Below are positions 50,460-60,648 of a DNA stretch of 64,000 nt, one piece after another. The notes below the pieces were generated by a model. That model made no database searches. It saw only the letters and a list, made by a program, of their open reading frames with translations, and was not told where the DNA came from. The translations under genes were made by a program, and so were the position numbers. The DNA comes from an uncultured Alcanivorax sp. (GTDB lineage: Bacteria > Pseudomonadota > Gammaproteobacteria > Pseudomonadales > Alcanivoracaceae), in contig NZ_CAMYIV010000012.1 in NCBI RefSeq assembly GCF_947258575.1, positions 434,001-498,000 on the forward strand. The letters run 5' to 3'. Numbering within the stretch: position 1 is the stretch's first letter; each line of letters opens with the position of its first letter.

Positions 50460-51245
50460 TTATTGAATCTGCTTGCGAAACCAGCGGCGGGTGGCGTCAT
50501 CGGCGGGGAAATAATGCTCGATACGCAGCTCTTCCATCACCACATCCAGAGCGGTGCCGAAACTGGCCAGGGTGGAGAAACTGCGCAGGCGCTGCCCGGC
50601 CAGGTCAATCTCCAGGGCCAGCATGGGCTCACTGCGGTCACCGGGCGGCTCCTGGTGGAGCAGAGCCTCCACATCTGCCAGTTCACCCAGGCGTTTGAGT
50701 AGGCTAGCCAGCCGCGGATCCGGTCTCGCCTGGTGGTCCCGGTGCAGGCGCCGTAACAGAAAGCTCGCCACGTCCTCCCAATTGACCAGAAAGGGCCGGT
50801 AGCCCTGGGGGTGAAACACCAGCTCCACCACATTGGCGGTCTGTGGGAAGGGGCCGCGCTCCTGCATCATCAGGCTCATCAGTTGTTGCTGGGCCTGATT
50901 GGCCATCAGTACATTCCAGTGGGCATCGAGCACCACGGCAGGGAAGGGGTTGTGATTGACCAGCATGATCTCCAGCGCCTGGCGCACTGGTGCCATGGCG
51001 TCGCTGTCCAGATCGGTGTTGCTGAAGGCCGGAGCATAGCCGGCGGACAGCAGCAGCCGGTTGGTGTCCCGGCAGCTCAGCTCCAGCTCCATGGCCAGCC
51101 GCTTGAGCATAGGGGCGCTTGCCTGGCTGCGGCCGGTTTCGATAAAGCTCAGGTGACGGCTGGACACCTCCGCACGCAGGGCCAGATTCAGTTGGCTCAG
51201 TCGCCGTGTCTTGCGCAGTTCAGCGAGTATCTGTCCGGTTTGCAT
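50460..51245 (-). CDS. XRE-family regulator with MmyB-like ligand-binding domain
   Basis: A 261-residue regulator: helix-turn-helix at about 5-60 (LRKTRRLSQLNLALRAEVS, SRHLSFIETGRSQASAPML), then an MmyB/MLTR-type domain (about 95-255) with PAVVLDAHWNVLMANQA, typical for this fold, which can bind fatty-acid-like ligands. AGGAG precedes ATG 51245. It is divergent from the small membrane protein at 51441; a near-perfect palindrome lies between them and is its likely operator. Confidence 0.88.
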   Translation of the reverse strand: MQTGQILAELRKTRRLSQLNLALRAEVSSRHLSFIETGRSQASAPMLKRLAMELELSCRDTNRLLLSAGYAPAFSNTDLDSDAMAPVRQALEIMLVNHNPFPAVVLDAHWNVLMANQAQQQLMSLMMQERGPFPQTANVVELVFHPQGYRPFLVNWEDVASFLLRRLHRDHQARPDPRLASLLKRLGELADVEALLHQEPPGDRSEPMLALEIDLAGQRLRSFSTLASFGTALDVVMEELRIEHYFPADDATRRWFRKQIQ

Positions 51246-51310
51246 GGGCTCTCCTGGAGCGGGGTTGTCTGAGTTCCGGTTAAGCATGAAAGAGGGCGGC
51301 AGGCTTCACC

Positions 51311-52340: not shown

Positions 52341-55300
52341 TCAGTCCAGCACCATGATCGCCTGGCCGGCATTGATCTGCTGGCCTTCCTGCCGGGTGAT
52401 GGCCACCACCTTGCCGCTCTGCGGGGCACTGATCTCGATTTCCATCTTCATGGATTCAAGCACCGCCACCACATCGCCTTCCTGCACGGTATCGCCTTCG
52501 GCCACGTTCAGCTTCCAGATGTTGCCGGCCACTGGGGATTCCACCGGGGTGCCTTCCACCGGCTCGGCGCTGTTGTCCGCATCCAGATCCTGCTCGGACT
52601 GGAAGTTGATCTGGCCGCTGGCCACCCAGCGTTGCAGTTCTTCATCGAAGGCCCGATTGCGGGCGTCGGTGAAGGTGGTGATGTCCTGCTGGTTGTCATC
52701 AAGAAACTGCTGGTAGTCCTTCTGGCTGAAGGTGGTCTCTTCGATGCGGATCGGGTACTGGCCCTTGGGAAAATCCCGACGAATCTGATTGAGTTCCTCG
52801 TGGCTCACCTCGTAGAAACGAATCTGATCGAAGAAGCGTAGTAGCCAGGGCTGATCAAACGCTTCGGTCTGCCGGTAACGGTTCCACATCTGCAGGGTGC
52901 GGCCGACAAACTGGTAACCGCCGGGACCTTCCATGCCATACACGCACAGGTAGGCGCCGCCGATGCCCACGGAGTTTTCCGCGGTCCAGGTGCGGGCCGG
53001 GTTGTACTTGGTGGTCACCAGCCGGTGGCGGGGGTCGTAAGGGGTTGCCACCGGCGCGCCCAGATACACATCGCCCAGTCCCATCACCACATAGCGGGCA
53101 CTGAACAGGATCTCCTTGACGTCATCGATACTGTCGAGGCCGTTGATGCGGCGAATAAATTCCAGATTGGACGGACACCAGGGCGCATCCTTGCGCACCG
53201 ACTGCATGTATTTTTCGATAGCCTGATGGCAGGCCTGGTCATCCCAGCTCAACGGGATATGCACGATGCGCGAGGGCACCTCCAGATCGTCCTGCTGTTG
53301 CAGGGCATGTTCTGCCTGGGCCAGCTTTTCCAGCAGATCAGTGCGGGGCAGTTGTCGCGGATCGAAATGAATCTGCAGGGAGCGAATGCCCGGGGTCAGT
53401 TCGATGACGCCATCGAGTTGCTGTTCCTGCAGCCATAGCATCAGCGCATGGGCACGGAATCGCAGGCGCAGGTCCAGCACCAGGGGGCCGTATTCCACCA
53501 GCAGGTAACGGTCACCGGCGGCCCGGTAGACCACCTCCACGCCGGCGTCGCTTTCGCTCAGACGATTAAGAATCGGGGTGGTGATCGGGGCCGGGCTGAC
53601 CTGTTGTTGCGGTGCGCTCAGGGCGGCCACACAGGCGTCCTGTTCTGCGGCCAGCGCATCCGCATCGGCCAGACTGATAGCCTCAAAGCGCAGGGTGTCG
53701 CCGGCCTTCAACTGACCCAGTTTCCAGCGGTCCGCCAGGATCACCGTGGCCGGGCAGACAAAGCCGCCCAGGGAGGGGCCGTCCGGGCCCAGGATCACCG
53801 GCATGTCACCGGTGAAATCCACCGTACCCACGGCGTAGGCATTGTCATGGATGTTGGACGGGTGCATGCCGGCTTCGCCGCCGTCACTGCGGGCCCAGCC
53901 AGGCTTGGGGCCCACTAGGCGCACGCCGGTGCGGCTGGAGTTGTAGTGCACCTGCCAGTCGGTGCTGAAGAACATGGCCATGTCGTCGTCGGTAAAGAAG
54001 TCCGGCGCACCGTGGGGGCCGTAGATCACGCGAAGGGTCCACTGGTTGTTCAGCGCTGGCTTCAGATTTTCCGGCACCACAAGATCGCTGCCGGCGCCGT
54101 TGTCCGGGGAGAAGTGCAGCACATCTCCGGTGCGCAGGGCGCGACCCCCATGGCCACCGAACTGACCCAGGGTAAAGGTGCTGCGCGAGCCCAGATAAGG
54201 GGAGCACTGGATGCCACCGGCAATGGCCAGGTAGGCACGGGCGCCTTCGCCGACCACCTTGCCCAGCTTCAGGGTCTGGCCCGGCTGTATGGCAATGGCG
54301 GTATAACCGGGAACCGGGTTGCCATCCAGGGTTGCCTGCATGTCTGCCCCGGTGAGGGCGATGCGGGTGACCTGATTAAATTTCAGGGTCGGGCCGTTGA
54401 GAGTGAACTCCAGCCCCGCCGCCTTTTCCTCGTTGCCCAGCAGGCGATTGCCCAAACGAAAACTCAGGGCATCGAAAGGGCCAGACGGCGGTACGCCCAC
54501 CGGCCAGTAACCACTGCGCCCGGGGTAATCCTGCACCGTGGTCAGGGTGCCGCCGGCCAGCACGTCCAGAGTGAACGGCTGGTAGGTGAAGTCGTTCAGG
54601 TAGCGGGTGGTCATCTGGCCGTCGGCAAACACCGGGTCGGCAAGAATGCTGCGCAGATAATCACGATTGGTTTCGATGCCTTCGATACAGGTTTCTTCCA
54701 GGCTCTTGTCCAGGGCGGCCAGCGCCGCGTCGCGGCTGGCTTCATGAACAATCACCTTGGCCAGCATGGGGTCGAACAGAGGCGAGACGGTGAGCCCGGC
54801 TTCGATCCAGTGATCAATACGCAGTGCCTGGCCGTCGGCCTGGGGAAAGGTGACGGCGGTGAGCAGCCCGGCGCTGGGCTGGAAATCCTTGTTGGGATCT
54901 TCCGCATACAGCCGCGCCTGGATGGCATGGCCGCACACGGTCAGGTTGGCGGCCAGGGTATCCAGCGATGGCAACTCACCGGCGGCCAGTTTCAGCATCC
55001 ATTCCACCAGGTCTACGCCGTAAACCTGTTCGGTGACGCCGTGCTCCACCTGCAGGCGGGTATTCACTTCCAGAAAATAAAAGGCGTTGCTGTCCTGGTC
55101 GAGAATGAATTCCACGGTGCCGGCATTACGGTAGCTGACTGCTTCCATCAGTGCCTTGGCGGTGGCCTGCAGTTCGCTGCGAACCGCATCGGGTAGGTTG
55201 GCGGCGGGGGTTTCTTCCAGCACTTTCTGGTGGCGGCGCTGGGCGGAGCAATCGCGCTCGCCGAGGGTGACCGCATGGCCCTGACCATCACCGAAAACCT

Positions 55301-55931
55301 GCACCTCGATATGACGGGCACGGGCGATATATTTTTCGATAAAAACGCCATCGTTGGAAAAGTTGTTGGCGCTCAATCGGCGCACCGTGTCCCAGGCCTT
55401 GTCCAGGCTGGCGGCGCTTTCACAGATCTGCATGCCGATGCCGCCACCACCGGCGGTACTTTTCAGCATCACCGGATAGCCGACATTGTCTGCGGCTGCC
55501 AGGGCCGCCTCTTTGTCGGTGAGCAGATCGGTACCGGGCAGCAGGGGGACGCCGGTGTTTTGCGCCAGCGCACGGGCAGTGTGTTTCAGGCCGAAGGTGT
55601 CCATCTGTTGTGGCGTCGGGCCGATAAAGGCAATGCCACGGGCTTCGCAGCCCTGCACAAAATCCGGGTTTTCACTGAGAAATCCGTAGCCGGGATGCAC
55701 CGCCTCGATGCCGTGCTGTTCCATCAGGGCAAACAGGGCATCCTGATTCAGATAGGTGTCGCGGGCACTGCCTTCACCCAGACAGTAGGCCTCGTCGGCC
55801 TGGGTCACATGCAGGGAATCCCGGTCTGCTTCCGCATAGACGGCCACGGCGGTAACGCCGATTTTTTTCAGGGTGGCAATAACACGGGTGGCAATGGCGC
55901 CTCGATTGGCAATCAACACTTTGTTGAACAT
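52341..55931 (-). CDS. Urea-carboxylase-family biotin enzyme, probably guanidine carboxylase
   Basis: A 1196-residue biotin-dependent carboxylase. The biotin carboxylase domain (about 1-450) has FNKVLIANRGAIATRV, the ATP-grasp loop STAGGGGIGMQ and FLEVNTRLQVEHGVTE. A KipA/KipI-like carboxyltransferase region (about 470-1040) follows, and then a biotinyl domain with VLESMKMEIEI (modified Lys near 1162). The order matches urea amidolyase component UC. Control by a guanidine-I riboswitch and the neighbouring DUF1989 genes indicate guanidine rather than urea as substrate. It carboxylates the substrate with ATP and bicarbonate. Last gene of the operon; no allophanate hydrolase follows. Confidence 0.93.
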   Translation of the reverse strand: MFNKVLIANRGAIATRVIATLKKIGVTAVAVYAEADRDSLHVTQADEAYCLGEGSARDTYLNQDALFALMEQHGIEAVHPGYGFLSENPDFVQGCEARGIAFIGPTPQQMDTFGLKHTARALAQNTGVPLLPGTDLLTDKEAALAAADNVGYPVMLKSTAGGGGIGMQICESAASLDKAWDTVRRLSANNFSNDGVFIEKYIARARHIEVQVFGDGQGHAVTLGERDCSAQRRHQKVLEETPAANLPDAVRSELQATAKALMEAVSYRNAGTVEFILDQDSNAFYFLEVNTRLQVEHGVTEQVYGVDLVEWMLKLAAGELPSLDTLAANLTVCGHAIQARLYAEDPNKDFQPSAGLLTAVTFPQADGQALRIDHWIEAGLTVSPLFDPMLAKVIVHEASRDAALAALDKSLEETCIEGIETNRDYLRSILADPVFADGQMTTRYLNDFTYQPFTLDVLAGGTLTTVQDYPGRSGYWPVGVPPSGPFDALSFRLGNRLLGNEEKAAGLEFTLNGPTLKFNQVTRIALTGADMQATLDGNPVPGYTAIAIQPGQTLKLGKVVGEGARAYLAIAGGIQCSPYLGSRSTFTLGQFGGHGGRALRTGDVLHFSPDNGAGSDLVVPENLKPALNNQWTLRVIYGPHGAPDFFTDDDMAMFFSTDWQVHYNSSRTGVRLVGPKPGWARSDGGEAGMHPSNIHDNAYAVGTVDFTGDMPVILGPDGPSLGGFVCPATVILADRWKLGQLKAGDTLRFEAISLADADALAAEQDACVAALSAPQQQVSPAPITTPILNRLSESDAGVEVVYRAAGDRYLLVEYGPLVLDLRLRFRAHALMLWLQEQQLDGVIELTPGIRSLQIHFDPRQLPRTDLLEKLAQAEHALQQQDDLEVPSRIVHIPLSWDDQACHQAIEKYMQSVRKDAPWCPSNLEFIRRINGLDSIDDVKEILFSARYVVMGLGDVYLGAPVATPYDPRHRLVTTKYNPARTWTAENSVGIGGAYLCVYGMEGPGGYQFVGRTLQMWNRYRQTEAFDQPWLLRFFDQIRFYEVSHEELNQIRRDFPKGQYPIRIEETTFSQKDYQQFLDDNQQDITTFTDARNRAFDEELQRWVASGQINFQSEQDLDADNSAEPVEGTPVESPVAGNIWKLNVAEGDTVQEGDVVAVLESMKMEIEISAPQSGKVVAITRQEGQQINAGQAIMVLD

Positions 55932-56016
55932 GGCGATGTCTCTTTGACGGCTGACGGGTCGTCCCGTCATGGCATTCTCTGGCCGCCGGGGTCGTCCCCG
56001 GGGAAATGCGGATAAA

Positions 56017-56658
56017 TCAGTGATTCCAGATCAGCACTTCAATGGGTGTGGGGTTGTAGCCGTTGCAGGGATTGTTGAGCTGCGGGCAGTTGGAAATCAG
56101 CATCACCACATCCATGCAGGCGGTCAGTTCCACATATTTTCCCGGGGCGGAAATGCCGTCCTCGAAGGTGAGGCCGCCGTCGGCGGTGACCGGCACATTC
56201 ATGAAGAAGTTGATGTTATGGGTGATGTCCCGTTTGCCCAGATCAAACTCCGGGTGCTGGTTGACGGCCAGCATCCAGCTGTCCCGGCAGGCATGCATGC
56301 AGCGCTTTTCCAGGTCATAGCGCACGGTGTTGCTTTCCGTGGCGCAGGCGCCGCCGAGGGTGTCGTGGCGACCACAGGTATCGGCGACGATTTCCAGCAG
56401 CGGGTTGATGCGGTTGGACATCAGCACGCTACCGGCGGTGAGGTAGACGTTGCCCTGCTCGCGAATGGTATCCATGGCGCTGTAGCGTTCCGCCGGATCG
56501 GCGGCGCTGTAGAAAAGGGTGTCGGCGGCCTGGTTGCCTTGCAGATCGAGCAGGCGAACGGTCTGGCCTTTTTTTACCGTGTGAATGAAGTAATCCCCGG
56601 CGGCGACCACTTCACGGAAGCTGGCCTGTTCCGGTTGCCTTGGGCTTTCTTTGATCAT
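56017..56658 (-). CDS. DUF1989 protein, urea-carboxylase-associated protein 1 / carboxyguanidine deiminase subunit
   Basis: A 213-residue DUF1989 protein with [20 protein letters not shown] (about 31-50), [25 protein letters not shown] (metal-site Cys/His), INFFMNVPV and the closing [16 protein letters not shown]. Related heterodimers were shown to deiminate carboxyguanidine to allophanate. GAGGAGAG lies before the ATG. Its partner is encoded just upstream in the operon, 46 bases away, and a repeat copy is inserted in that gap. Confidence 0.85.
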
Positions 56659-56704: not shown

Positions 56705-57421
56705 TTACAAACCGAGGTGGTACAGGCGATTGTTTTCAAAGGCCCGGCCGTTTTCCGGGCGAAAGTGTTTGCAGTAATCGTCGTCGGCCAGCGGGGCGGC
56801 TTTGAGCATTTCTACCTGTACCGGTTTCATCGGATAGTCTGCCGCCGGGTTCAGCGGGTGCGGGCAGGTATGCAGGATCACCAGGGTGTCCATCTCGAAG
56901 CGCAGGGTGACGCTGGCACCGGCGCGGGCGGCGCTGGCATCGAAGATCAGGTTGCCGTCATCGTCGGTGATGACTTTGGAAAAAAGATTCAGGTTGGCGG
57001 CCAGGTCCCGTTCGCCCAGGCCGTACTTGGCCAGTTCGGTAAGGAAACTGTGTTCGCCACTCAGGGTCCACTGGTTGTGACAATCCTGGTAGGAGCGCAC
57101 CTGATATTTTTCCTTCAGACTTTTTTCGCTGAGCGTGCCGCAGACGGTGTCGTGCCAGCCGAAATCATCGTCGACCATGGAGGCAAACACCCGGCCCATG
57201 TCCGAGTAGAGGCAGTTGCCCCGGGTCAGCTTGAAGGTGTGCTGGCCTTTCAAGGTGTCCGGGGCGTTGTAGCGTTCCAGCAGGTCTTCCGGGTTGTACA
57301 TCAGCAGGGACAGGTTGGCGCCACCTTCCACGTCGGTAAATCGCAGTTGCATGCCACGGCGTACCCGCATCGACCAGTGGGCGCTGCCGGGCAGGATGGT
57401 GGTGTAAAGACTGTCGCTCAT
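56705..57421 (-). CDS. DUF1989 protein, urea-carboxylase-associated protein 2 / carboxyguanidine deiminase subunit
   Basis: A 238-residue DUF1989 paralogue of the next gene. It has RVRRGMQLRFTDVEGGANLSLLMY, ASMVDDDFGWHDTVCGTL and the closing HPLNPAADYPMKPVQVEML. Cys138 (in YQDCHNQWTL) and His residues could bind the metal. The two subunits together are expected to form the deiminase. AGGAG lies before the ATG. Confidence 0.85.
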   Translation of the reverse strand: MSDSLYTTILPGSAHWSMRVRRGMQLRFTDVEGGANLSLLMYNPEDLLERYNAPDTLKGQHTFKLTRGNCLYSDMGRVFASMVDDDFGWHDTVCGTLSEKSLKEKYQVRSYQDCHNQWTLSGEHSFLTELAKYGLGERDLAANLNLFSKVITDDDGNLIFDASAARAGASVTLRFEMDTLVILHTCPHPLNPAADYPMKPVQVEMLKAAPLADDDYCKHFRPENGRAFENNRLYHLGL

Positions 57422-57431
57422 CAGGCGCTCC

Positions 57432-58223
57432 TTAGAGGATGTCGTGGAGAACGCGGCTGGTATTGCCCACGCTTCGATTTATGTTTGTCAGGGTGCCGCT
57501 TTCGCAATCACCCACCGGCAGGTCGTAGGTCACCCGGGCGCCATAGGCACCGGGGGCCTGCGGGTCCAGGCGGGGCTTGTCGAACACCCACAGCCGGGTA
57601 CCCAGGTAAAAGCCTTCGTTGATGTCATGGGTGATCATGAACACGGTGAGTCGCTGTTCTTTCCACAGCGACAGCACCAGCTTGTGCATGTCGGCACGAA
57701 TGCCCGGGTCCAGGGCGCCGAAGGGTTCGTCCAGCAGCAGGATGCGGGGTTTCTTGATCAGCGCCTGAGCCAGGGCCAGGCGTTGTTGCATGCCGCCGGA
57801 GAGTTCATGGGGGTATTTGTCCACGGCGTGGCTGAGGCCCACGCTTTCCAGCATGGCCAGGGCGTCTTTTTGTAGTTGCTTGCGACGCTTGCCAAAACTG
57901 AAACCCAGCCAGGGGCTGTGCTGCAGTTCGCCGCCGAGCATGACGTTTTCCAGGGCGGTCAGATGGTTGAGTACCGAGTAGCGCTGGAACACGATGCCAC
58001 GACTGTCGTCTGGTTCGCCGGGCAGGGGCTGGCCATCCAGCAGCAGTTCACCACGGCTGGCCTGTTCGGTGCCCAGCAGCAGTTTCAGGAAGGAGGTTTT
58101 GCCACAGCCGGAGGCGCCGACGATGGTGACGAACTCACCTTCCTGGACGGTGGCGTTGAGGCGTTCCAGCACTACCTGGTCGCCGTATTCCTTCCACAGG
58201 TTTTTCATTTCGATGATAGCCAT
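57432..58223 (-). CDS. ABC transporter ATP-binding protein
   Basis: A 263-residue ATPase: Walker A GASGCGKT (about 36-43), signature LSGGMQQRLALAQAL (about 143-157), Walker B ILLLDEPFGALDP, and the switch His in MITHDINEG. It resembles nitrate/taurine-type (NitT/TauT) ATPases. ATG 58223 is taken as the start, with GGGAG ten bases upstream; GTG 58229 is possible. Energises the permease encoded next to it. Confidence 0.9.
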   Translation of the reverse strand: MAIIEMKNLWKEYGDQVVLERLNATVQEGEFVTIVGASGCGKTSFLKLLLGTEQASRGELLLDGQPLPGEPDDSRGIVFQRYSVLNHLTALENVMLGGELQHSPWLGFSFGKRRKQLQKDALAMLESVGLSHAVDKYPHELSGGMQQRLALAQALIKKPRILLLDEPFGALDPGIRADMHKLVLSLWKEQRLTVFMITHDINEGFYLGTRLWVFDKPRLDPQAPGAYGARVTYDLPVGDCESGTLTNINRSVGNTSRVLHDIL

Positions 58224-58238
58224 TACCACGGATCTCCC

Positions 58239-59057
58239 TTAATGAGCCTGTTGATGGAACCAGGGGTAGCGCCATTGCGAGTAACGACGCAGAAGAAAGT
58301 CGATGGCAAAGGCCAGCAGGGTGATCCACACCACATAGGGCAGAATCACATCCATGGCCAGATAGCGCCGTACCAGGAAGATGCGATAGCCCAGCCCTTC
58401 GGTGGCGGCGATGGCCTCGGCGGCGATCAGGAACAGCCAGGCCGGGCCCAGGGACAACCGCACGGCGCCGATCAATCGCGGCATCAGTTGCGGCCATACC
58501 AGGCGGGTAATGATCTGCCAGGTATTGGCGCCCAGGGTTTGTAGCTTGATGATCTGCTCTTCCGGAATTTCCAACGCCCGTTGCTGCAGATCACGAATCA
58601 GAAAGGGGGTAATGCCGATGATGATCAGCATTACCTTGGCCAGTTCACCCAGGCCGAAAATAATGAACAGCACCGGCAGGATCGCCATGGGCGGTACCAG
58701 TGACAGGCCGGTCACCAGCGGTGACAGGGTCGAGCGGATATAGGGAATGGTGCCGTTGCCGATCCCCACCACCAGGGCAACCAGCGCACTGATGGCCACG
58801 CCGATGCCAAGCCGTTGCAGGCTGGCCAGGGTGTCGTTCAGCAACAGATAGTCGCCGCTGCGCTTGCTGGGTTCGAATGCCATACGCTGGATGGCGTCCA
58901 CAAAACTGCCCAGCGCCGGCAGCAATTTGTCGTTGGGGTTTTCCGTCAGGCGTGCATCGGAGGCCACCATATAGACAATCAGCAGCAGCACGAAGGGCAG
59001 CAGGCCCAGTGCCCAGGCACCGACACGTCCCGGTTGACGGTTGATCAGTTTTTTCAT
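58239..59057 (-). CDS. ABC transporter permease (NitT/TauT-like)
   Basis: A 272-residue permease with six helices. The EAA loop is in LGANTWQIITRLVWPQLMPRLIGAV (about 180-204), and RLGIGVAISALVALVVGIG lies before it. The ATG at 59057 has GGGAA upstream and gives the usual positive N-terminus (MKKLINRQPGR). A homodimer would form the membrane channel. Confidence 0.9.
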   Translation of the reverse strand: MKKLINRQPGRVGAWALGLLPFVLLLIVYMVASDARLTENPNDKLLPALGSFVDAIQRMAFEPSKRSGDYLLLNDTLASLQRLGIGVAISALVALVVGIGNGTIPYIRSTLSPLVTGLSLVPPMAILPVLFIIFGLGELAKVMLIIIGITPFLIRDLQQRALEIPEEQIIKLQTLGANTWQIITRLVWPQLMPRLIGAVRLSLGPAWLFLIAAEAIAATEGLGYRIFLVRRYLAMDVILPYVVWITLLAFAIDFLLRRYSQWRYPWFHQQAH

Positions 59058-59098
59058 GGCAATTCCCGGTGATTGAATTCGCAACAGGCCGGACCCCG

Positions 59099-59141: not shown

Positions 59142-60206
59142 TTACAGCTTTCCTTCTGCTGCCATGGCCATGTAATCCGGGATAAAGCGCAGCGTTACAT
59201 TGCTGTCGCTGCCATAGATGCCCGCCGGGGTTTCGATACCCACAAAGCCGGCATCCGGAGCGCCTTCACCCAACAAACCGTGCTGGAAGGAAAATTCCGC
59301 CACCTTCTGCATGGTGTCTTTCAGTGCCGGGCTGTTGACGAAGGCCACGGCCTCGGCGGGCTGGTAGAACATGCGGGTGGAATCCAGCTGGGCTTCATAG
59401 CCGGCCAGGTCGGTACCGGAGGCATTGGCCATGAAGGTACGGGCGGCCTTGCCGGCCTCATCATCGGCGGACATGGTGGCCATGATCTCGTACCAGGCAC
59501 CGGTGAGCGCCTTGCCGAAATCCGGGTTGGCTTCCAGAGTGTCGGTGTTGACCACCATCAGGTCGATGATTTCACCGGGGATCTGCGCGGAGTCGAACAC
59601 CTTGTGGCTGTCCGGCATGGCGGTGATTTCGCTGAGCAGCGGGTTCCAGGTAGCCACGGCGGTGACGCCTTTGGTGGTGAAGGCGGACACCAGATCTGCG
59701 TCCGAGGTATTCACCACGGTCAGGTCGCGCTCAGTCAGCCCCACGGTTTCCAGGGCACGGGCCAGCAGGTAGTGGGAAACGGACAGTTCTACCAGGTTGA
59801 CCTGCTGGCCCTTGATGTCGGCCAGCTTGTCAGTGCCCTTGAGCACCACGCCGTCGTTACCGTTGGAGAAGTCACCCACGATCAGGGCGGTGGAATCCAC
59901 GCCGCCGGCAGCGGGAATGGTCAACGCATCCATGTTGGTCATGGCGCAGCCGTCATAGGCACCGGCGGTGTACTGGTTGATGGATTCCACGTAGTCGTTG
60001 ATCTGTACCACATCAATCTCGATGTCGTACTTGTTGGCCCACTTGTCGACGATCTTCTGTTGGGCGCCGTAATCCCACGGCATCCAGCCCACATAGATGG
60101 ACCAGCAGACGCTGAAGGAATCTTTGGCCAGTGCGGTGACCGGCATCAGGGATGTGGACAGGGCAAGTGCTGCAACGGCAGCGGTCTTACGTACGGAAAG
60201 GGTCAT
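59142..60206 (-). CDS. ABC transporter substrate-binding protein, probably for guanidine or a related compound
   Basis: A 354-residue periplasmic binding protein: signal peptide about 1-28 (ending ALA), then SVCWSIYVGWMPWDYGAQQ and a type II fold of the NitT/TauT kind. DGCAMTNMDALTIPAAGGVD and ATWNPLLSEI are conserved in the urea-carboxylase-linked subfamily. AAGGAGG is an excellent ribosome site seven bases before the ATG. First gene after the riboswitch. The ligand is inferred from the riboswitch. Confidence 0.88.
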   Translation of the reverse strand: MTLSVRKTAAVAALALSTSLMPVTALAKDSFSVCWSIYVGWMPWDYGAQQKIVDKWANKYDIEIDVVQINDYVESINQYTAGAYDGCAMTNMDALTIPAAGGVDSTALIVGDFSNGNDGVVLKGTDKLADIKGQQVNLVELSVSHYLLARALETVGLTERDLTVVNTSDADLVSAFTTKGVTAVATWNPLLSEITAMPDSHKVFDSAQIPGEIIDLMVVNTDTLEANPDFGKALTGAWYEIMATMSADDEAGKAARTFMANASGTDLAGYEAQLDSTRMFYQPAEAVAFVNSPALKDTMQKVAEFSFQHGLLGEGAPDAGFVGIETPAGIYGSDSNVTLRFIPDYMAMAAEGKL

Positions 60207-60261
60207 CTCGGACCTCCTTGGCTACGGACGATGAGGAATCCAATGACAACGCGGTCATCGT

Positions 60262-60402
60262 GTCCTCCCGGGCTTTTGTCCCGCCGTGTAACCTTCAGCC
60301 GCATGTGCTGCGAAACGACTGCAAGAAGGTCGACTGCTCTCGGACCAGGCATCGGCTGCGCGCGGTTTGTTGGCGCAGGCGACCGGAACCCTAGCGGTCT
60401 AT
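60262..60402 (-). ncRNA. Guanidine-I (ykkC) riboswitch
   Basis: Read on the minus strand the leader carries, in order, the conserved words of the ykkC class: CTAGGGTTCCGG (near 60393-60382), CTGGTCCGAGAGCAG (near 60354-60340), ACACGGCGGGAC (near 60290-60279) and AAAGCCCGGGAG (near 60277-60266). Variable helices lie between them, in the order expected for this aptamer. It lies about 60 bases before the start of the binding-protein gene. Ligand-bound RNA should raise expression of the operon. No T-run terminator follows, so the output may be translational, or use the ATGAC/GTCAT hairpin just downstream. Confidence 0.93.
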
Positions 60403-60423
60403 TGGTGCAACTTGTGTTGAGTT

Positions 60424-60482
60424 GGGAGCCTCTGAATGACCCCTTAAAGACTGAGCATCCAAGGAGTCACTTAGAGGCTCCC
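60424..60482 (-). other. Long imperfect hairpin between promoter and riboswitch
   Basis: GGGAGCCTCT (60424-60433) pairs perfectly with AGAGGCTCCC (60473-60482), and the stem extends inward with few mismatches to about 22 pairs. If transcription starts at the sigma-54-type site, this hairpin is in the RNA leader upstream of the aptamer. Confidence 0.6.
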
Positions 60483-60522
60483 TAATGGCAACGTGGCCAT
60501 TCGATTCCTCTTCTTTTGGTAA

Positions 60523-60539
60523 AGCAAAGGGGATGCCAA
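60523..60539 (-). promoter_or_regulatory. Sigma-54-type promoter of the guanidine operon
   Basis: On the minus strand TTGGCATCCCCTTTGCT contains GG and GC separated by exactly ten bases, the invariant pattern of -24/-12 promoters (TGGCAC-N5-TTGCW). Transcription would start near 60512. This fits NtrC-type nitrogen control. No clear NtrC site was found upstream in 60540-60648. Confidence 0.65.
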
Positions 60540-60611: not shown

Positions 60612-60636
60612 GGGGCATTGCCAACGGCAATGCCCC
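60612..60636. terminator. Hairpin 3' of the dienelactone hydrolase gene
   Basis: GGGGCATTGCC pairs with GGCAATGCCCC (11 bp, loop AAC), twelve bases beyond the stop at 60649. No T run follows. Confidence 0.6.
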
Positions 60637-60648
60637 TAACTGGTGCGG

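Follow-up and report, generated by a model that had tools for sequence, protein, structure and literature searches.

The window, by which we mean the whole 64,000-nucleotide stretch of DNA that was analyzed, carries an operon on its minus strand. Family-profile matches gave the gene order as substrate-binding protein, permease, ATPase, UAAP1, UAAP2, and carboxylase, as follows.

60213..60219, minus strand: AAGGAGG, probably the ribosome-binding site of the first gene (from the sequence)
59142..60206, minus strand: Uca-type ABC transporter substrate-binding protein (TIGR03427, over cut-off)
58239..59084, minus strand: ABC permease (general family matches, below curated cut-offs)
57432..58229, minus strand: ABC ATPase (general family matches, below curated cut-offs)
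56705..57421, minus strand: UAAP1, by literature a carboxyguanidine hydrolase subunit (TIGR03425, over cut-off)
56017..56658, minus strand: UAAP2, by literature a carboxyguanidine hydrolase subunit (TIGR03424, over cut-off)
52341..55931, minus strand: urea/guanidine carboxylase, with a probable start (TIGR02712, over cut-off)

The initial annotation had called this a urea-carboxylase-family operon, which the over-cut-off matches to TIGR02712, TIGR03425, TIGR03424, and TIGR03427 show to be correct. The family match of the carboxylase begins at residue 15 of the open reading frame from 55970. Therefore, the probable start is the ATG at 55931, past the Guanidine-II aptamer listed below. It follows from the gene context and the literature that the predicted substrate of the operon is guanidine. 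Judged by the binding protein, the genome belongs to the genus Alcanivorax, and among named relatives A. jadensis T9 is nearest (99% identity). A gene with weak matches to XRE-like helix-turn-helix regulators (window 50460-51287) separates the operon from rapA.

The leader of the operon contains several candidate control elements, and one more lies inside the operon.

60632..60646, minus strand: NtrC-like dyad GCACC-AGTTA-GGGGC (9 of 10 consensus positions), with the -24 element 108 nt downstream
60538-60523, minus strand: sigma-54-type -24/-12 promoter TGGCATCCCCTTTGCT (GG-N10-GC; 11 of 11 scored consensus positions)
60512, minus strand: predicted transcription start (+1), placed by counting 12 nt on from the C of the -12 element and in agreement with the helix position
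60510-60503 and 60501-60498, minus strand: putative enclosing helix, 5' strand (leader comparison, fold, and covariation)
60423-60482, minus strand: REP/MITE-like hairpin insert between promoter and riboswitch (strong hairpin; net about 57 nt)
60405-60263, minus strand: Guanidine-I riboswitch aptamer (RF00442, 76.8 bits, gathering threshold 63, E 6.6e-12)
60263-60267, minus strand: GAGGA at the 3' end of the aptamer, which could pair with 60233-60237 in an alternative (OFF) state (sequence, constrained fold, and overlap statistics)
60242..60259, minus strand: predicted local hairpin GAUGAC/GUCAUU that competes with the enclosing helix (sequence and OFF-forced fold)
60240-60233 and 60245-60242, minus strand: putative enclosing helix, 3' strand (leader comparison, fold, and covariation)
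55954-56003, minus strand: Guanidine-II riboswitch aptamer inside the operon, before the carboxylase gene (RF01068, 44.1 bits, cut-off 32)

A ykkC/guanidine-I aptamer had been proposed for this minus-strand leader, and a covariance-model search of the window bore this out with a significant RF00442 match that spans the full model (positions 1 to 107). The aptamer precedes guanidine-related genes, namely those for the Uca-type importer, UAAP1 and UAAP2, and the carboxylase. RF00442 and RF01068 were the only Rfam families found at gathering level in the 64,000-nt window; the PRPP riboswitch model did not reach that level. Guanidine-I was present in 34 of the 57 genomes of our relatives search (our own genome counted) and in 29 of 369 genomes drawn from the class. 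At three loci (L054, L057, and L062), two Guanidine-I aptamers lie back to back on opposite strands. At L054 and L057, one of the two precedes a ureohydrolase-like gene, which we take to resemble the guanidine hydrolase GdmH.

The sigma-54 consensus is TGGCAY-N5-TTGCW, with GG-N10-GC, and sigma-54 transcription begins about 12 nt past the -12 element. When the window was scanned for this consensus, there was one exact match, TGGCATCCCCTTTGCT. Allowing one mismatch gave 8 matches, against a shuffle mean of 7.2. Therefore, within the window, only its exactness distinguishes TGGCATCCCCTTTGCT. Across the genome (3.5 Mb), the exact consensus was found 16 times and the reversed pattern once. Two of the 16 exact sites belong to the guanidine pathway, one in the operon leader and the other at C5:292597-292612 (allophanate hydrolase). 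The initial annotation had placed a GG-N10-GC element about 120 bases upstream of the aptamer, and the site found by the scan is there, with its start 133 nt and its last base 118 nt before the point where the aptamer match begins. The genome also encodes RpoN (TIGR02395, 498 bits). A separate exact consensus match (G000:C9:125796-125811) precedes the rpoN match, located at C9:125896, by about 85 bases, and autoregulation is possible there.

We scored the promoter in relatives by taking the best 80 named binding-protein loci of 408 found. The aptamer was found by pattern in 79 of these best 80, and 78 loci could be scored (L082 is masked, and in L146 the pattern search found no aptamer; the window itself is entered as L031 and L068). 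A promoter matching at least 10 of 11 positions was present within 170 nt upstream of the aptamer in 60 of the 78 named loci, and in 39 of the 78 the match was exact. At the 10/11 level, the controls gave matches in 2.0% of shuffles, in 0/78 cases on the opposite strand, and in 38 of 5350 other 170-nt stretches of the same loci. The promoter starts 63 to 126 nt upstream of the aptamer in the 60 named relatives with at least 10/11 (median, 81). By eye, the 18 misses have an element near the same place: GG-N10-GT in 13 (including Zhongshania, Spongiibacter, and Marinobacterium), a weaker GG-N10-GC in 4, and GG-N10-GA in 1. That promoter and aptamer are stacked, as had been suggested, is therefore supported by the covariance model, by the genome-wide rarity of the promoter, and by its conservation in 60 of 78 relatives.

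A promoter match was also found in 31 of 36 entries of the class draw once repeats and the window had been removed (37/42 before removal). The repeats were L072, L075, and L076, which duplicate L054, L057, and L062, and two entries (L051 and L055) are apparently the same contigs as the named loci L147 and L148. For six of the 31 (L044, L054, L057, L058, L059, and L062), the match for one entry is 21 to 32 nt before the aptamer, which leaves little space for the helix described below. We also looked at twelve plasmid loci hand-picked from 235 records; 4 of the twelve have no aptamer. No sigma-54 promoter was found in any of the five alphaproteobacterial plasmid Guanidine-I leaders (best, 6 to 8 of 11 positions). 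The plasmid loci with a promoter were two from Pantoea, at 11/11 each, and one from Caballeronia, which combines Guanidine-I with a promoter at 10/11 and an NtrC dyad at 10/10 and has a helix p of 0.21.

Exporter genes served as a control. Of 21 Guanidine-II matches, 7 precede a gene judged from its translation to be SMR-exporter-like. A 10/11 promoter match within 300 nt upstream was found at none of these 7 loci, of which L171 had only 67 nt that could be searched and L179 was below the Rfam cut-off. Two Guanidine-II loci that are not of the exporter type, L169 and L181, have a 10/11 match starting 53 and 36 nt upstream, respectively, and L181 precedes a carboxylase gene.

The NtrC dyad consensus is GCACC-N5-GGTGC. 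A dyad with at least 9 of 10 positions was present upstream in 21 of 63 relatives, compared with 0.9% of shuffles. The genome has an ntrC gene (TIGR01818, 746.4 bits; cut-off, 558.6), and further NtrC-family genes are present as well. As a sequence element, the NtrC-like dyad fits nitrogen limitation as the first input.

Allophanate hydrolase, the enzyme that completes the pathway, is absent from the operon cluster, and its sole over-cut-off match is on another contig (C5:290793-292445, 820 bits). The exact sigma-54 site at C5:292597-292612 precedes this gene, and a scan of the locus in our own genome found no Rfam guanidine riboswitch. An over-cut-off allophanate hydrolase is encoded in 16 of 17 Alcanivorax genomes. 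An 11/11 sigma-54 match lies before it at 15 of these 16 loci, and the sixteenth ends at a contig end. Having the sigma-54 site without a riboswitch would make nitrogen status the common signal, with guanidine control for the operon alone. At this locus in our own genome (L035, G000:C5:289293-293945), a conserved CTTGTRTACAA palindrome precedes the allophanate hydrolase gene and a GntR-type-like regulator gene follows it.

In the leader, GAGGAATCGAATG, directly after the predicted start, is complementary in all but one position to CATTGGATTCCTC, which closely follows the aptamer. When the window leader was folded, the minimum-energy structure included the resulting helix; its outer eight pairs had a pair probability of about 0.69, and its inner four about 0.58. 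We scored such helices without gaps (GC 3, AU 2, GU 0.5, and mismatch -4); this scoring was set after the helix had been seen, and the score of the window helix was reached by 0 of 100 shuffles. When each locus was compared with 100 shuffles of its own, p was ≤0.01 in 73 and ≤0.05 in 82 of 120 loci. After de-duplication into clusters, the corresponding counts were 33/87 and 44/87, and the helix was not significant at the 0.05 level in 43/87. Cognate pairing was better than at least 95% of non-cognate pairings in 42 of the 87 clusters. An earlier and looser duplex test, which allowed bulges and kept same-genus non-cognates, was not discriminating: 8 of 120 cognates were in the best 5%, and the means were -33.9 kcal/mol for cognate versus -29.0 kcal/mol for non-cognate pairs. 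It was superseded by the gapless score with shuffles and then by the de-duplicated clusters.

The pairing was also analyzed for covariation in an alignment of 25 leaders, hand-chosen as apparently alignable (L134, L119, and L115 look shifted but were retained). In this alignment, 90.4% of the cells pair and 8 of the 15 pairs have changes on both sides; 0 of 500 shuffles reached either value, and slid controls had changes on both sides at 1 to 6 pairs. There was no excess of further pair types in these 25 leaders (483 of 500 shuffles were at least as high). The helix in the window contains one G-G mismatch. The same pair is unpaired in 16 of the 25 aligned leaders, as is the outermost pair in 10. 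Elsewhere, the helix is made of other sequences, such as GCACTCTTGG in Zhongshania, ATGCACAG in L014, and GTTCAATGGCATATGCATG in L055.

The 5' strand of the helix starts -1 to +12 bases from the predicted +1 in 58 of 78 clusters, compared with 20.7% of non-cognate pairings. This count covers only the 78 clusters with a promoter score of at least 9, and its leader windows were measured from the aptamer rather than the promoter. Because the 5' strand sits at the predicted +1, the promoter prediction and the helix support each other. However, the two are not strictly coupled, since three Guanidine-I leaders (L048, L061, and L211) have a helix (p ≤0.03) and no recognizable sigma-54 element. L211 is an alphaproteobacterial leader with a helix p of 0.03. 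Thus, comparison of the leaders shows a conserved, covarying pairing at the predicted sigma-54 start, and it appears to be new. Neither an enclosing helix nor sigma-54 control of guanidine-I loci was found in the open-licence part of the PMC full-text literature that was available.

The larger distance between promoter and aptamer in the window is due to the hairpin insert. Direct comparison showed that A. jadensis and two other members of the genus lack it; another two members have related versions in the same place. Elsewhere in the genome, three sites match roughly the first 40 bases of the insert at 85 to 88% before diverging. The insert sits between the 5' strand of the helix and the aptamer, and both strands of the helix are intact. 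It is a natural example of additional sequence being tolerated within such a leader. In the cluster analyses above and the T-run analysis below, five insert carriers were given a leader of 160 nt and the others 100 nt.

Two reading frames were considered and rejected. A leader peptide between the promoter and the aptamer would require a frame that is not maintained across relatives, and an upstream open reading frame from 60258 overlapping the first gene has no ATG there in L001 and L009.

The helix might take part in switching by competing for the 3' end of the aptamer. Constrained folds of the window leader gave -132.8 kcal/mol with the helix forced and -132.0 kcal/mol with the OFF pairing forced, a difference of 0.8. 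In 57 of 87 clusters, versus 25.5 expected, the sequence most complementary to the 3' end of the aptamer overlaps the 3' strand of the helix. Taken by itself, the OFF helix shows a weak enrichment (10/87 clusters at p ≤0.05, with about 4 expected). According to these folds and overlaps, an exchange of pairing partners between the aptamer 3' end and the enclosing helix is plausible. In 11 of 147 leaders, which do not include the window, at least 4 of the 10 nt that follow the presumed OFF strand are T. Since no U-run follows, the platform in the window is not a canonical intrinsic terminator. The predicted accessibility of the ribosome site was nearly unchanged by the leader (0.23 with it and 0.13 without it). 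An anti-aptamer strand, CCGUGUAACC, was present in 21 of 88 leaders at p ≤0.01, but it was not supported in the window (p, 0.65).

These results can be joined in a model with four steps. In the first, which is strongly supported, NtrC-activated sigma-54 RNA polymerase would initiate near 60512 under nitrogen limitation. The first 15 or so bases of the transcript would then be the 5' strand that closes around the guanidine-I aptamer and holds 60233-60245, through the conserved and covarying pairing. In the third step, without guanidine, the downstream strand would pair with the aptamer 3' end (60263-60267) around the local hairpin, which would be the OFF state; bound guanidine would retain the 3' end in the aptamer, so that the enclosing helix is favored and the switch is ON. 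Finally, the Guanidine-II switch before the carboxylase gene would act as a second guanidine check, an arrangement that is known. We think it probable that these four steps together describe a two-input control region for the use of guanidine as a nitrogen source. Nitrogen limitation and guanidine would then likely both be required (AND logic).

A stronger proposal treats promoter and riboswitch as a single device. Initiation at the sigma-54 site would set the first bases of the RNA, which would be the anti-OFF strand of the P0-like helix, so that only transcripts from this start could be switched and the AND logic would be written into the 5' end of the RNA. We see roughly even chances that this holds in much of the Gammaproteobacteria sensu lato, Burkholderiales included. 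If it does, the leader would clearly exemplify a switch for which selecting the transcription start provides one of the functional strands.

Another explanation is that the two controls are merely stacked, with a standard guanidine-I riboswitch whose platform is wholly downstream and with flanking complementarity that has no role. This would agree with the 43 of 87 clusters in which the helix was not significant and with the existence of alternative downstream platforms, such as the anti-aptamer strand mentioned above. However, the covariation, the unrelated sequences that still pair, and the position of the helix at the predicted +1 make it unlikely. We put slightly less weight on the opposite sense, with the enclosing helix as the OFF state that hides the ribosome site or the message start and is opened by guanidine. 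The near-equal fold energies permit either sense, and a flanking P0 has been proposed as the OFF state in the related Guanidine-II of P. aeruginosa (PMC9561414, as far as the available text goes), so the sense could be opposite to the one in our model. Against this, the 3' strand of the helix lies before the ribosome-binding sequence without overlapping it, and the helix is in competition with the pairing that the 3' end of the aptamer can make. In the inferred sense, guanidine favors the enclosing helix as the ON state. This follows the description of the guanidine riboswitch as one that turns expression ON, and also the related PRPP aptamer, in which the ligand stabilizes P0 in an ON switch according to the available part of PMC6031431.

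The nitrogen input could be different from the one proposed. Nitrogen limitation would not be required if the promoter worked with some activator besides NtrC, or if much of the expression came from a sigma-70 promoter within the leader. The dyad in the window is imperfect, 9/10 is reached by only 21 of the 63 relatives, and the further NtrC-family genes could supply another activator. Even so, the dyad is far more frequent than the shuffle rate of 0.9%, and a urea carboxylase gene loses its expression in a Burkholderia cenocepacia ntrC mutant (PMC5491218, available text), and we regard this possibility as improbable too. Finally, the flanking complementarity might reflect an inverted repeat of protein-binding sites in the DNA instead of RNA pairing. 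In the window the complementary sequences are about 270 nt apart, and they are conserved within Alcanivorax. But among clades they vary freely and stay complementary, a behavior that a single protein site would not show; we consider this explanation very improbable. Our preferred reading is still the two-input control region. If its enclosing helix is real, many guanidine-I riboswitches would contain a previously unreported component.

The combination of Guanidine-I and Guanidine-II in guanidine carboxylase operons is a known arrangement, judging by the available text of two reports (PMC12186494 and PMC12508155). In Raoultella terrigena, Klebsiella michiganensis, and Erwinia rhapontici, Guanidine-I is on the importer genes and Guanidine-II is on the carboxylase genes (PMC12186494, in the part available). 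The same part gives an active-site aspartate instead of asparagine as the criterion for a guanidine carboxylase. The words "NtrC" and "sigma" are absent from the main text of that review. According to the available text of PMC12508155, the Vreelandella boliviensis operon shares with ours a Guanidine-I element at its head, a Guanidine-II element in front of the carboxylase gene, the ABC importer, and the carboxyguanidine hydrolase subunits. It differs in that allophanate hydrolase is inside the operon, whereas in the window genome it is unlinked. That text names no sigma-54 promoter or enclosing helix, and two V. utahensis loci of the same genus (L150 and L157) have an 11/11 promoter in our analysis. 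The V. boliviensis operon was strongly induced on guanidine compared with ammonium (PMC12508155, available text). The available parts of the cited literature attribute the induction of guanidine operons to riboswitches, and one key comparison, that of guanidine with ammonium, may shift nitrogen status too. Comparing the two as sole nitrogen sources does not by itself separate riboswitch control from nitrogen control. A conserved sigma-54/NtrC input, if true, alters how such induction data are read.

Links to nitrogen control have been reported from the other side. In B. cenocepacia H111 under nitrogen limitation, urea carboxylase was strongly down in an ntrC mutant (log2, -6.0), and two related neighboring genes are listed in the same NtrC regulon without a number; in its available text, this account does not link the urea carboxylase to guanidine or a riboswitch (PMC5491218). 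A survey of sigma-54 regulons predicts sigma-54 control of COG3665 genes in the text available to us (PMC12316311); the string "guanid" is absent from it, and "riboswitch" occurs only in its references.

Helices that flank an aptamer also have precedents. In the Guanidine-II riboswitch of Pseudomonas aeruginosa, the 5' and 3' flanks of the aptamer are proposed to pair as P0. That case differs from ours in the class of the aptamer and in that P0 is proposed to hide the Shine-Dalgarno sequence (PMC9561414, available text). The PRPP riboswitch has a related ykkC fold, and its 5' and 3' ends pair as a P0 that is part of the expression platform; the same source, in the part available, states that P0 is absent from guanidine-I (PMC6031431). 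The helix of the type found in the window is longer than the PRPP P0 and, in most leaders, is 10 to 90 nt from the aptamer on the 5' side. Because it is longer and further out, the enclosing helix need not be equivalent to the short PRPP P0 beside the binding pocket.
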